From Rhexocercosporidium sp. MPI-PUGE-AT-0058 (lineage: Eukaryota > Ascomycota > Leotiomycetes > Helotiales): DNA of 64,000 nucleotides. Below, piece after piece: positions 2,898 to 51,455 of the stretch. A model generated the notes under the pieces. That model was given only the letters and a program-made list of their open reading frames with translations, was not told where the DNA came from and made no database searches. A program made the translations under genes and the position numbers. Within the stretch, counting starts at the first letter, position 1. Each line of letters begins with the position of its first letter. The stretch is taken from positions 248,001 through 312,000 of the forward strand of contig JAGTJL010000002.1 of assembly GCA_020746875.1 (NCBI GenBank), given 5' to 3'.

Positions 2898-3957
2898 CTT
2901 ACTTTTCTAGTGTTTTGAGGCTCAGTCGTTTTTGTCAGAGAAAGCCCTTTGGAAGATGAATTTCCTATTGCAAAATCAGAGTCTACAGAGAATGTTCATT
3001 AGCGCCAGTATCATGAATGGATTCATTTGGTCTGGCTTACAGCAGCATTCCCAGCAGTACTTGTCGACGTGATACTGATATTCTGGCAGGTTTTACTGGG
3101 GATGAGATGCCTGAACGTGAGAATTAGAGAATGAAATCAAACTCGGGGAGAATGCTCGACGAGGTAGGATTCCGGTTGAGGTCCTTACATAGCCGCTGCT
3201 CGAGGGCGATCGGTAACTTTTCGGCCGTTAACTTGCGCCCAGTAGTGTGGGAGTGAAGGCCTCATCAATGTCTAGCGGTATACCGTTTCATTCCATGATC
3301 GAGGATAGGATAGAGTGTGTGCTAGCATCGACGTCGGAGTAAGACGTTAGCTTCTTTTTATATCTCTCCTCCGTTAGCTTAGCATCGTCACTTAACCTCT
3401 AACACAAAGACCTCAAAGCTAGCTCCTTTCATTCATCTCTATTCTGAGCTCGGCAAAGACTCAAAATGTACAATTCAAAGAAGAATGGCTGCCAGCATAT
3501 CAAACCGACACTTTATTTTCAACCTTCAAGAGTGAAAATTGTAGTGAATTGTCTTCATCCTTTCTCTTCGAAAGATGTTAGCGAACAGCTGTCTTACTTG
3601 AGCTGTGTCATCACAGCTGCAACGCAAGCATCATTAATGAATTATGATTATGACCGCCATGACAGACGAAGAAACTCAAAGCGTAGGCAAGTACCGTTCG
3701 AACCGTGGTGTCGGGATATAAATTGAGCCACCATACTGTTTGTGTTGAGGGAGAAAGTAGTTATAAAAGCAGAAGAATTCTTTTATTCTCATGGGCTTAC
3801 CCCGTACATGTCTCACAGGGCACAAACGCTAATCTTCCAGTACTGTACATCATAGCTAAAGTAAATATTTCAGGCATTCCGCCGCTAGAACTCCAGGCAG
3901 GTACCGCCTCACTAACTCGTAATTCTACCAAAACCTTCCATTGGAAACAGAATTCCT
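2898..3957. other. Intergenic, no gene supported
   Basis: This stretch lies between the UstYa-like gene and the 3' end of the ankyrin gene. An 86-codon plus-strand frame at 3466 follows a pyrimidine-rich leader, but its product has no recognisable feature and no intron-extended continuation, so I leave it unannotated. Confidence 0.4.
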
Positions 3958-37218: not shown

Positions 37219-40200
37219 ATGGCTGGAAAACGAAAGAGAAAGAGGTCAGGCTATAGTGAAGGAGATCAAAGGCAACAAAACACTTCCTCGAATAATGCCC
37301 TCGTTGTCAAAGAATCCTTGCTCGCCAAATACTATCCTCAAGTTCTGTCCTTAAGAGAGTATCTTTTGTCGAAGCTGCCAAAAACTTCCAAAGTCCGAAG
37401 AAAGAAGATCATCTCAGTTGGCAAGAAATCAGACGACAAGAAGACCGAGCAAGAGCTTGCTCGATTCCTTGATCAGACATTGATAGGAGTGTCGAAGTTC
37501 AAGGAGGCATCTCAAGATGAAAGATGGAAGCAATGGACATCATTCTCTCAAAAGCCGGATGACTCTGTATCATTTGCGAACTTGAGCGGGGTCGGGACTT
37601 ACTCACAAACAGAGGTATGTTTACTTCCCATTCTCCATCGGAATGTTGATATTTGGAAATGAGACACTGACATCATCTAGATTGTGGACTTCGCCATCTG
37701 GTTACTCTTTTCCAAATCTTCGAATGGGAAAGTACAGCATCTGCTATGTCAAGGTTTCCGAAAAGATGTTCCTCATAGGACCATCAACCGGGGAGAGAAT
37801 GCTGGTTCTTCGATACCTGGTGTTGTCTCAACATATCCGAACAGTCATGTGACTGAGATGAAAGCACGACCATGGCCTCAAGTATTGATGCTAATGGGCA
37901 AGGAAGGAGAGAGGGCGATGATAGACTTGATTCTGGACTGCGGAGTATTTCTGGCCGTGGAGAGTGGTCATGGAGCCTTCAATCAACTGAGTGGTAGGTG
38001 GTTCGTTAAACAGATCGACCCTGGCTGACAAAACAGGTGTACCACTTGCCGACCTGTCACTCCTACCTACAACGGAGGCGGCCGTGGTCACGATGGCAAA
38101 GACAACAGATACCCTCCGCAATCCTTCAAGTATTAATTTCGTTCGTAATCGGATGATGTATGCTAGAGCTGCATTGAATGCCAAACGCGAGGTCAGCTTC
38201 GGGTTGAGACACATCCGTAAGTTGCTCTATCTATCACTTCGGCTTTGCTTACATGTCTAGATGTTCTCAACCGATACCCATTGCCTAAAGCCTCAGCGGA
38301 TGATGATCAGTCTATTGACCCACACACAATCCAAGTCATGATGTACATCTTCCCTCGACAGTTTAGCCTTCACAATGTCTTCACCAAGGACGTTGATCCC
38401 CGGCAAACAGTCCAACCATTCAAGGACTACACCCTACGTGAAGATGAAATAAAATCAAAGTTCCGCTCCAAAGATCCCAAAATCCCCAAGCGCCTGCGAG
38501 GCAAGGCAACGGATTTGGTTCGCAAACTTCAAATCCTTCATAGCCGATGTCCATACAAGTTGCTGCTAGAACATTACTGTCCAGTGAGTCATCTCTCAAT
38601 CGCTTAGATCCTACTGACTTCTAGATTCTTGATTCTCGTTCCCGAATGCCAGACGTGGAATCAAGCGCCGAATCAAGCGCCGAGTCATCAAGCAAGTTCA
38701 AAACACAGATGTCTGCTATCAGTGAAGCAACTCCAGTCACGGTCGAGAGCTCAGCCTTGGTCACAATACCTTCTAAGAAACCATCCATGATGGATCACGC
38801 GACCCCAACTGCCAGAGTATCTGCATTCTGTCGTGCAGTTCTTTCGCGTTTGATTCCATCTGAATTCTGGGGGTCGGGAGAGGTTAAGGAGCAAAATGAG
38901 AAGATCTTCCATCAGAATACCCACAACTTCATTAAGCTTCGCAGGTTTGAGAGCATGTCATTGCATCAAGTAATGCAAGGACTGAAGGTAAGCTACCTCT
39001 ACACTCCAGAGTACTGTCTAACAACTCCAGATTACGGATATCGAATGGCTTGCTCTACCTGGTGTCGAAGGGAAGACCTCAAAATCAGACATCTCCAAAC
39101 GCTGGGAGATATTCCATGAATTTCTCTACTACCTCTTTGACTCGATACTAATCCCACTCATCCGATCCAACTTCCACGTCACAGAATCTAATGTCCATCG
39201 ATATCGTCTCTTCTATTTCCGCCATGATGTCTGGAGAGCACTAGCTGAGCCAGCTCTGACATCCTTGAAGGTCTCAATGTTCGAGGAGGTCAAGCTAGAG
39301 AAGGCTCAGAGAATATTGGATTCTCGACCACTTGGATTCAGTCAGATCAGGCTCTTGCCCAAGGAAACTGGGGTGAGGCCAATCATGAATCTCAGACGAA
39401 GATCGCTCAAGAAAGGATACAACAATTCGAATGTCCTGGGGATGAGTATCAACTCGGTGTTAGCCCCGGTTTACAACGTGCTGAGTCTCGAGAAGGTACG
39501 TCGTTCCATTCTATCCACGACGCCCCACTGACAATTTAGACAACCAACCCTGCCCGTCTAGGATCAGCACTCTTTTCAGTAGGCGACCTCTACCACAAAC
39601 TCGTAAGATTTAGGTCTCAACTCCCAAAATCGCACTCCCACCTCTACTTCGCCAAACTTGACGTCCGCTCCGCATTCGATACCATCCCGCAGTCCGCCAT
39701 CCTCAACCTAATCCGTACCCTCCCCTCAGAATCCAGCTACCGCATATCCAAACATACAACCCACAAACCAGGCGACAACCACCTCTCCGACACCTCCGCG
39801 AAACCCATCCGCAAATGGACATCCCTCGCGCACTTCCCCGACGACTTCGATACCTTCGCCGAGCAACTCTCTTGCGGTCTCGCGGAAGGCAAGAAGAACA
39901 CCATCTTCACCTCAAACATTGTCTCGCAGTTCCGCGACCGGGATGAGATTCTCACTCTCCTAGACGAGCATATCACGCGTAACATGGTAAAGATAGGCAA
40001 GAAGTTCTACCGGCAGAAAGAAGGGATTCCGCAGGGTTCGGTCCTCTCCTCTCTGCTGTGCAATTACTTCTACGCCGATCTCGAGGCGACGTATCTCGAT
40101 TTCCTGGATCCGAGAGAGAGTCTGCTACTTAGACTTATTGATGACTTCCTACTCATTACTACGAATCGTGCGGACGCGAAAATGTTTTTGGAGGTCATGC

Positions 40201-41859
40201 ACGAGGGATTGCCGGAGTATGGCGTTACTGTCAATCCGGATAAGACGCTGGTTAATTTTGAGGTCGTTGTCAATGGAAGGAAGGTCTCGAGATTACTTGG
40301 TGATGGGGGGTTTCCATATTGTGGCTCTTTTGTCGATATGAGGACGTTGAATCTTAAGAGGGATAGGGAGAGGAGGAAGGGTATGGGTGAGTTTCTCCAT
40401 CTAAATCTCTTGCGCGGCCTTCCAGGACCTGCATATCTGCTTCTCGAGGCTTCGTGGATGAGTTATTGTGCGATGCAGGAAATGAAGACTCGCTAATTAT
40501 TTACGTTTGCAGCGGTGCAAGATTCTCTCACGGTAGAATACTCGCGCATCCCGGGGAAGGCATACGGGAAAAAAGCTCTAAGTTAGTCTACAATCTCCTC
40601 TCATATTTTTTCGTCTTGTTTTTCCAACTTCCTATCATATTTTTTTCTCCCTCCATACATACATTGCCAGTGGCATCCCCCTTCTCGTTCGCCAATGGTA
40701 ATCCAACACAAGCGTGTCTCTTCGCTTCCCTTCTTGGCGGCCCATTCCCCACCCAGCTCAACCCCAACTCCAACCCCAAACACTTCACGCGCATGAAAAC
40801 AGCCCGAAAAATATGGCTATATGTATTCAGATACAGCCATCTCTGTCACATACGACCACAGACTGAGGAAAATTGGGCATCCCGTCCGCTCTGCCATACA
40901 CAAGCCTCAGATCGGCAGATTAGTAGTTGGGTGGGTGACCACCAGCGAATACCTGCTGTTGTATGTTTTTTGCTTTTTATTTTTGACCATTAGCTTGGGT
41001 GGAATGAATGAATGAATAGAGAGGGAGCGAGTGCTTTAATCTAGTTGACTGTCTTCTCGTCCATGGTTTTTCTTTTCTTTTTTGCAGCTCCTTGATTTAC
41101 TTATCTTGTGAACTCATCTTATATTCCCCTCATCCTCCGAGCCGGAGGTATCTTTTTCTGCCTCATCCACCTCCGGTTAATGATCACCATTTCACTCTGC
41201 CAACAGCTCACTAATATCCCTCTCCTTCGTAACAGATACATTCAAAATTCAAGCACACGCCATGTTCCTCGACACGGCGTTCAACTCCCTCGCAACTGTG
41301 AAATCAAACATCTCAACCGCCTTCACCGAGACGGCTGTCAAGATGTGGATGTATGCGCGGTGTTTAGGGAGTGGGAAGAGACCTAGTTGGAGGATTGTCG
41401 TTGGTGAGTTTTATTTATCTATACTTCCTTCCTCATCATGAGGGTCGATTTTGGTGTTGGGTTCACATGTTTGGTTTTGTAGGTCTCGTAACGGGGGAAA
41501 GGAATGGATGCAAGGAGTACATTGATGGAAGGGTATTGTATGACTTACTGACGGAACAAAACAGGAACGATAGAGAACCTCATCAACCTAGCCTTCGTAC
41601 TCATGAAATCCAAAGCCAAGAATAAGAATAACGTGGGGTATAAGTGCGCGATTACGAGGGTGCAGGTTGAATGGTACGCGCTTCCTCTCTTGCGTTGTCT
41701 AGGTTAGTTGCTGATATGCGTGTGTGACATAGGTTGGCAATAAACGCGTTTAGACAGGTGCTCGGGAAGAGGCAGAGTGGGTATAGGGATGTTATTGCAT
41801 GGTTAGATGGGAGGATTAGGAGGGTGGGTGGGGAGGTGGGAGGGCAGGGTTTGAGGTAA
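37219..41859 (+). CDS. TERT: Telomerase reverse transcriptase catalytic subunit
   Basis: Eleven exons give 1119 residues: 37219-37614, 37681-37993, 38037-38216, 38261-38583, 38625-38987, 39031-39495, 39540-40386, 40513-40581, 41236-41403, 41565-41673, 41733-41859. The N-terminal TEN-like part is followed by the RNA-binding domain (NFVRNRMMYARAALNAK; MYIFPRQFSLHNVF) and the T motif after FWGSGEVKEQNEKIF. Then come the RT motifs: 1 (LLPKETGVRPIMNL), A (KLDVRSAFDTI, Asp 721), B' (KEGIPQGSVLSSLLCNYF), C (LIDDF, Asp 881-882) and E. Exon 8 holds DSLTVEYSRIPGKAYGKKAL; the thumb extension resumes in exon 9 with NTFKIQAHAMFLDTAFNS. It extends telomeres using an RNA template. Exon 7 could instead end at 40380 (GTATGG). 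Intron 8 is 654 bp and holds a 5S rRNA gene; reading into it gives a stop after one codon. Confidence 0.95.
40818..40822 (+). promoter_or_regulatory. TATA motif of the 5S rRNA gene
   Basis: TATAT lies at -30 to -26 relative to the first base of the 5S gene. In Neurospora 5S genes a TATA element near -29 is needed for transcription; the spacing here fits. Confidence 0.7.
40848..40966 (+). rRNA. 5S ribosomal RNA gene inside TERT intron 8
   Basis: The 119-nt sequence starts ACATACGACCA and ends GTTGTATGT, which pair as helix I (nine pairs, one G-U). The invariant blocks AAATTGGGCATCCCGTCCGCT and TAGTTGGGTGGGTGACCACC are present. The latter covers the TFIIIA box C region. CTGAGG (40863-40868) pairs with CCTCAG (40905-40910), a helix whose sequence differs from the Neurospora form but keeps pairing, so the gene looks selected rather than a pseudocopy. 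A TATA motif precedes it and six T residues end it. It lies on the same strand as TERT, 266 bp after the donor and 269 bp before the acceptor. Dispersed single 5S genes are normal in Pezizomycotina; this location is not one I know. Confidence 0.93.
40966..40971 (+). terminator. Pol III T-run terminator of the 5S gene
   Basis: Six consecutive T residues follow the last helix I bases. A second T-rich stretch, TTTTTATTTTT, begins a few bases on and may act as backup. Confidence 0.8.
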
Positions 41860-51383: not shown

Positions 51384-51455
51384 TGACCTACGCAGGGATC
51401 GAACCTGCAATCTCTTGATTCGTAGTCAAGCGCCTTGCCATTGGGCCAGCAGGCC
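51384..51455 (-). tRNA. tRNA-Arg (anticodon ACG)
   Basis: The 72-nt minus-strand sequence folds as a cloverleaf. The acceptor GGCCTGC pairs with GTAGGTC (two G-U pairs). The anticodon arm is CTTGA-CTACGAA-TCAAG with anticodon ACG. The T arm is GCAGG-TTCGATC-CCTGC and the D stem is a 3-bp GCC/GGC. The discriminator base is A and there is no intron. ACG read as ICG decodes CGU, CGC and CGA arginine codons. Confidence 0.93.

Follow-up and report, generated by a model that had tools for sequence, protein, structure and literature searches.

The gene for telomerase reverse transcriptase (TERT) in the window, i.e., the whole 64,000-nucleotide stretch of DNA that was analysed, contains a full-length 5S rRNA gene within its eighth intron and on its own strand. 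Translated 5S sequence was also found at the corresponding junction of TERT models from relatives, and the nested gene looks like an old arrangement that has been kept rather than a recent accident.

TERT and Its Intron 8

The structure of the TERT gene was obtained from a splice reconstruction, Pfam matches and homologues. The features of the gene and of its eighth intron are as follows.

37219..41859, + strand, TERT gene, start to stop codon, 11 exons, 1119 amino acids
40513..40581, + strand, TERT exon 8, with a 3' end reading ...KKAL plus the first base (A) of an N codon (phase 1)
40582..41235, + strand, TERT intron 8, 654 bp, donor GTTAGT, acceptor GTAACAG, placed from homology
40818..40847, + strand, promoter-like region upstream of the 5S, with TATATG at -30, GATAC at -18 to -14 and CTGTC at -5 to -1
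40848..40967, + strand (that of TERT), full-length 5S rRNA gene, Rfam RF00001, 75.1 bits, E 4.6e-14
40961..40966, + strand, GTATGT in the 3' end of the 5S, from a motif scan with five donor hexamers
40966..40971, + strand, T6 run, a Pol III-type terminator, overlapping the 5S 3' end
41236..41403, + strand, TERT exon 9, opening AT ACA TTC, so that the join reads N-T-F-K-I-Q (TFKIQAHAMF)

The spliced product carries Telomerase_RBD (166.6 bits), RVT_1 and TERT_C in one protein, each above the Pfam cut-off. Introns 1 to 10 measure 66, 43, 44, 41, 43, 44, 126, 654, 161 and 59 bp, respectively; intron 8 thus has 654 bp as compared with 41–161 bp in the other nine. The initial annotation had read the gene from KKAL in exon 8 to NTFKIQAHAMF in exon 9 across a 654-bp intron with a GTTAGT donor, and had put the first six introns at mostly 40–70 bp. 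The junction was reproduced by the splice reconstruction and the homologues, and the lengths given above agree with the estimate. Among the best 120 of 1014 TERT homologues, 79 pass from the exon 8 pattern directly to the exon 9 motif, three have inserted residues, seven have no recognised continuation and 31 have no match to the exon 8 pattern. From these data we infer the join 40581/41236. By its TERT the fungus belongs to Helotiales: among the matches listed, the nearest TERT proteins are those of Leptodophora (92% identity, with 79% of the searched region covered), Cadophora gregata (81%, with 81% covered) and Oculimacula (80%, with 98% covered). A home-made hexamer coding score was weak and marked four TERT segments only.

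A 5S rRNA Gene with Pol III-Type Signals

The covariance model 5S_rRNA (RF00001) matched the centre of the intron over model positions 1–120 of 120, with 75.1 bits as compared with a gathering score of 38. This agrees with the initial annotation, which had placed a complete same-strand 5S gene inside a TERT intron, with a TATA motif at -30 (here TATATG) and a T6 terminator (40966–40971). Its start at 40848 stands, and its end, given as 40966, was corrected to 40966/40967.

To score the upstream region, we used a weight matrix of the 35 bases 5' of the 5S, trained in a leave-one-out manner on the other copies of the genome. The TERT 5S reached 18.3 and ranked seventh among the 21 copies, whose scores ranged from -12.6 to 22.8. 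The matrix optimum within intron 8 fell exactly on the base preceding the 5S, and the background maximum was 9.6 for window positions sampled every 7 bases. The internal region, the upstream elements and the T-run are like those of the sibling copies, by sequence. The TERT 5S has the structure of its siblings together with their Pol III-type signals, and would be expected to be transcribed by Pol III.

The 5S Family of the Genome

An Rfam search of the 62.7-Mb genome (60 contigs) gave at least 22 matches to 5S, 20 of them above 71 bits, and six more places in the genome matched the 5S part of the intron partially. As the initial annotation had stated for fungal 5S genes in general, the copies are scattered over the genome; they differ from each other by up to about one fifth in an ungapped comparison, and degenerate copies are also present. 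The 5S genes of filamentous ascomycetes are known to be dispersed and to undergo birth-and-death evolution (Rooney and Ward 2005, via the available part of PMC5555474), and the scattered divergent copies and pseudogenes of this genome resemble that pattern. The same part of that source does not mention any TERT or condensin intron with a 5S gene.

The TERT 5S is identical at 120/120 bases to a copy at G000:C9:323784-323903, which lies on another contig with unlike flanks. The neighbourhood of the 5S copies was scanned with Pfam for 30 of the 50 candidate ORFs within 1.5 kb of them, and for the nine ORFs of an 8-kb region around the C9 copy. A nested position was shown for two of the 22 copies, and two others, L005 and L006, have a different Pfam-recognised gene on either side. 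The idea that the identical C9 copy is nested as well was not supported, as Pfam recognised nothing but a DUF6594 gene, to one side of it, among the nine ORFs of its 8-kb region. The copies L004 and L009 resemble each other in their upstream sequence and each lie beside an NPP1-domain gene, perhaps within a duplicated segment.

When intron 8 was compared with the genome, self excluded, all of the 27 matches fell inside intron bases 233–404, the 5S itself occupying bases 267–386. The intron flanks of the 5S (266 + 268 bp) have no other copy in the genome. A duplication of the whole intron from elsewhere in the genome was accordingly rejected, only the 5S and some adjoining bases having matches in other places.

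The pairing of the 5S was assessed with 21 copies (20 distinct, L022 left out) and 500 shuffles. The number of pairs changed on both sides was 7, as compared with 4.1 after shuffling, and cells changed on both sides numbered 28 against a shuffled mean of 9.2, with none of the 500 shuffles as high. The covariation score was 0.123 versus 0.049. Further pair types (13 versus 11.8, with 139 of the 500 shuffles as high) were the one of five measures that did not exceed the shuffles. The paired helices noted in the initial annotation are thus supported by covariation of the family above shuffles, with helices 3 and 6, short and mapped from Rfam, pairing poorly as mapped (17.5% and 33.3%, respectively). 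Helix II varies among the copies with its pairing largely kept (GAGG/CCTC, GAAG/CTTC, GGTG/CACC and CTTG/CAAG). Several 5S types occur in this one genome, and the TERT, CND2 and C9 copies belong to one type.

5S Sequence in the TERT Genes of Relatives

Odd protein models were used as a trace of intron DNA, and the best 120 of the 1014 TERT homologues were inspected in this way. Three models among these 120 contain translated 5S after exon 8. In Sclerotinia trifoliorum (P0075, Sclerotiniaceae), exon 8 is followed by NWASRPLCHTQASDRWISSWVGDHQRIP, which is 5S frame 3; in Ciborinia camelliae (P0054, Sclerotiniaceae), exon 8 is followed by 36 other residues and then by TYDHRLKRIGHPVRSAIHKLQIGGLVVGWVTTSES, 5S frame 1; and the model of Cadophora gregata (P0003, Ploettnerulaceae) ends with ...LPHTTID and a stop, corresponding to 5S bases 2–19 in frame 2. 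The nested 5S probably explains at least these three truncated or chimeric public TERT models. Peptide searches with the 5S frames, in which that part alone was scored, returned 8 proteins and 230 proteins (best 120 listed), of which 126 were new. A BLAST comparison of the 126 with ten TERT proteins revealed three more TERT models with 5S at the exon 8/9 junction, namely Lachnellula suecica P0143 (Lachnaceae), P0135 from JGI and P0146 from ENA.

Among the matches listed, an intron 8 5S is therefore present in at least seven TERT genes, that of the window included, and the named carriers belong to Ploettnerulaceae, Sclerotiniaceae and Lachnaceae, all of them Helotiales. The initial annotation had proposed an inspection of intron 8 in related genomes; the protein models revealed a conserved 5S, with six other TERT models carrying it at the same junction. 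An assembly artefact is ruled out by the occurrence of the 5S at this junction in models from six other sequences. Conservation of the intron 8 5S across relatives, as read from these models, is what is new here. A gene for chromosome ends that hosts a Pol III-type gene, apparently across an order of fungi, amounts to a natural experiment on the coexistence of Pol II and Pol III.

In the powdery mildew Golovinomyces magnicellulatus, model P0088 continues through intron 8 for about 40 codons with no 5S among them, so that a 5S is not a necessary part of the intron; judged from this model, the 5S was lost there or never present. The models of Leptodophora P0002 and Rhynchosporium P0011 break at the exon 8/9 junction, and no 5S peptide was recognised in them. 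When the 120 listed TERT models were searched for 5S in antisense, two chance 5-letter matches were the only result. The shared sense orientation of the carriers is not independent evidence, because the peptide queries detect sense insertions only.

Origin of the Nested Gene

In Cadophora, the 5S starts 274 bp into the intron, as compared with 266 bp in the window. The 30 bases upstream of the Cadophora 5S fit the TERT copy best of the 22 copies (21 of 27 constrained positions versus 8–18), and the upstream 120 bases agree with the TERT copy at 57 of 98 positions versus 30–49 for the other copies of the genome. The intron flanks of Cadophora and the window align with a score of 56, with shuffles reaching at most 54 (0/500), and a shorter flank piece scored 55 versus at most 45 (0/1000 shuffles). 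The two nested 5S genes are taken as an orthologous pair on this likeness of sequence. The corresponding flanks of four further models showed no homology with the window intron above chance, with shuffles as high in 89/500 (P0135), 230/500 (P0146), 311/500 (P0054) and 47/500 (P0138) cases. Only the Cadophora flank alignment is significant, and the case for one origin in the different families is therefore based on the shared intron junction.

A TERT tree was made from the window and 36 chosen proteins, with 29 of the 37 rows being unlabelled, which does not make them negative for the 5S. The carriers are scattered through Helotiales on this tree. With the unlabelled rows counted as lacking the 5S, seven changes were required, as compared with a mean of 6.5 for shuffled labels. 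The smallest node uniting all carriers had an SH-aLRT value of 82 and was not starred, and P0143 sat on a long branch. The tree speaks neither for nor against a single origin, because cleanly spliced models are uninformative about introns. From the shared junction, we infer a single origin of the intron 8 5S.

A Tolerated 5S Gene as the Favoured Explanation

We consider it reasonably probable that an ordinary Pol III-type 5S gene was inserted early into a pre-existing TERT intron, where it was tolerated and retained. TERT is typically transcribed at a low rate. The TERT 5S would be one of about 20 dispersed copies, co-directional with its host, and would go back to one acquisition, in which a 5S entered an already existing TERT intron, early in Helotiales, to be kept ever since. 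Pol III would read the 5S by means of the internal and upstream promoter that the 5S itself brings, and stop at the T-run; Pol II would cross the intron at a low rate, and the 5S would be spliced out with the intron. The sense orientation would spare head-on collisions of the polymerases. As for retention, the 5S would be a working member of a small family that a weakly transcribed host tolerates, and TERT itself would have no need of it. A weakly read gene is probably disturbed least when the Pol III gene in its intron is co-directional with it, and intron 8 would be spliced normally, with no strong effect on TERT.

The closest experimental comparison is offered by mammalian Polr3e, whose intron 1 hosts a Pol III-transcribed MIR (Yeganeh et al. 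2017, PMC5358760, available in part). According to that part of the paper, an intronic MIR decreased a host reporter by 20–30% when antisense, and no effect could be measured when it was sense. The TERT 5S resembles the Polr3e MIR in being a conserved Pol III unit (here by sequence) within a Pol II intron. It differs in that the MIR is antisense and a SINE, whereas the TERT 5S is a sense, functional-type 5S gene of a fungus; the antisense orientation needed for the Polr3e-MIR effect is absent, the 5S lying on the TERT strand. The lack of a measurable reporter effect of the sense MIR favours a tolerated and retained 5S. Sense orientation is nevertheless no guarantee of no effect, since human cases of Pol II accumulation include sense Pol III units (same part of PMC5358760).

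A non-coding RNA gene in a fungal intron is also known from Candida albicans, in which the snoRNA snR18 lies in the EFB1 intron (available part of PMC2926782); unlike snR18, the nested gene described here is a 5S and has Pol III-type signals of its own. The open PMC literature matches listed, a set with subscription papers and preprints outside it, gave no description of a TERT or condensin intron that contains a 5S gene, and within this set the view of the initial annotation that the arrangement is undescribed holds.

Splice Signals inside the 5S and a Possible Role in Regulation

The initial annotation had suggested that the nested 5S may affect elongation or splicing of TERT and could tie telomerase output to ribosome synthesis. 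The main alternative hypothesis, which we regard as rather unlikely, is that the 5S is a regulatory element tuning TERT, either by Pol III slowing Pol II, or by an L5- or TFIIIA-bound 5S fold steering splicing as a poison exon or decoy donor. Several observations fit this hypothesis. The GTATGT motif in the 5S is the only donor of intron 8 besides its own GTTAGT among the five hexamers scanned. Exon 8 (phase 1, A) joined to CACAG/ACTGA inside the 5S reads AAC TGA, i.e., Asn and a stop right after exon 8, and the modelled TERT of S. sclerotiorum (P0091) terminates precisely in ...KVLN, as predicted for such splicing. The models of Ciborinia, S. trifoliorum and Venustampulla CND2 read as if spliced at GTATGT, and so appear to use 5S-internal splice sites; this is a peptide reading of protein models only. 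In plants, a TFIIIA exon derived from 5S rRNA (P5SM) works likewise, its inclusion leading to a premature stop (PMC5568362 and PMC10753412, both available in part), and the proposed TERT poison exon parallels it as a 5S-like sequence within a pre-mRNA whose inclusion would bring a premature stop. The TERT 5S differs from P5SM, an exon with TFIIIA as host, in being a complete 5S with a promoter-like region and a terminator in a TERT intron. Moreover, TFIIIB roadblocks can be orientation-independent in yeast (available part of PMC5358760).

Against this hypothesis, the models are not transcripts and a 5S could mislead gene finders, and the sense MIR mentioned above was without measurable effect. 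GTATGT occurs in 20 of 21 and ACTGA in 13 of 21 5S copies of the genome; no special design is needed, because both are ordinary 5S sequence. No convincing branch point was found by eye before the internal 5S acceptor. Since the motifs are normal for 5S and the protein models are predictions, splicing into the 5S is a lead rather than evidence of use. The nested arrangement raises the testable question of whether a sense Pol III gene within TERT limits telomerase or alters splicing.

Other Nested 5S Hosts and Independent Insertions

In the same genome, the 5S copy at C12:1804506 lies inside an intron of the condensin subunit 2 gene, with the following features.

L016:1259-2996 (G000:C12:1804264-1806001), condensin subunit 2 intron, 1738 bp
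L016:1501-1620, 5S in this intron
L016:2142-2242, tRNA gene in this intron
L016:2684-2767, tRNA gene in this intron

L016 positions 659–1261 and 2997–3119 match residues 30–228 and 261–301, respectively, of the Venustampulla echinocandica condensin P0122, and the P0122 residues between the matched parts are translated 5S, at the same junction as the L016 intron. The condensin 5S indicates that nested 5S genes are not unique to TERT. The L016 intron also holds an antisense 5S-like fragment near 2411–2430. The SMC_N models P0179, P0195 and P0203 (27 member sequences) read into 5S after ...DAALDFRNVS, the best PDB match of P0203 being SMC4, and a nested 5S in these models, in another lineage, is probable from their sequences. 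A POT1 model (P0232, ENA; degenerate 5S) and an APC2 model (P0121, JGI) also run into 5S. Several of the recognisable hosts, i.e., TERT, condensin subunit 2, SMC4, POT1 and APC2, are chromosome-maintenance genes, a grouping made post hoc from a small sample to which other hosts exist.

These hosts would fit independent insertions, with 5S genes landing repeatedly in introns of TERT or of weakly transcribed chromosome-maintenance genes. In the JGI model P0167, the 5S peptide lies one TERT intron further on, in intron 9, about 75 bp past the donor, and this too is in line with repeated landing, as are the unaligned tested flanks between families and the scatter of carriers on the tree. However, six other TERT models carry the 5S at the identical junction, and the window and Cadophora agree in flank sequence and in spacing, so that we consider independent insertions improbable. 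It also appears quite improbable that the 5S genes in TERT, CND2, SMC4, POT1 and APC2 form a conserved regulatory link, by which Pol III activity or the 5S-RNP would divert TERT splicing to the stop and telomerase would follow ribosome synthesis. Finally, an inert passenger, or a pseudogene decaying within a long intron, would suit the flanks unconserved between the families tested and the degenerate copies in the genome, but is very improbable for a 5S with no substitution as compared with its identical copy, family-wide pairing that has been kept and an upstream region among the better-scoring copies.

Apart from the 5S, the only RNA match of the window above the gathering score is a tRNA gene at 51384–51455 on the - strand (Rfam, 58 bits).
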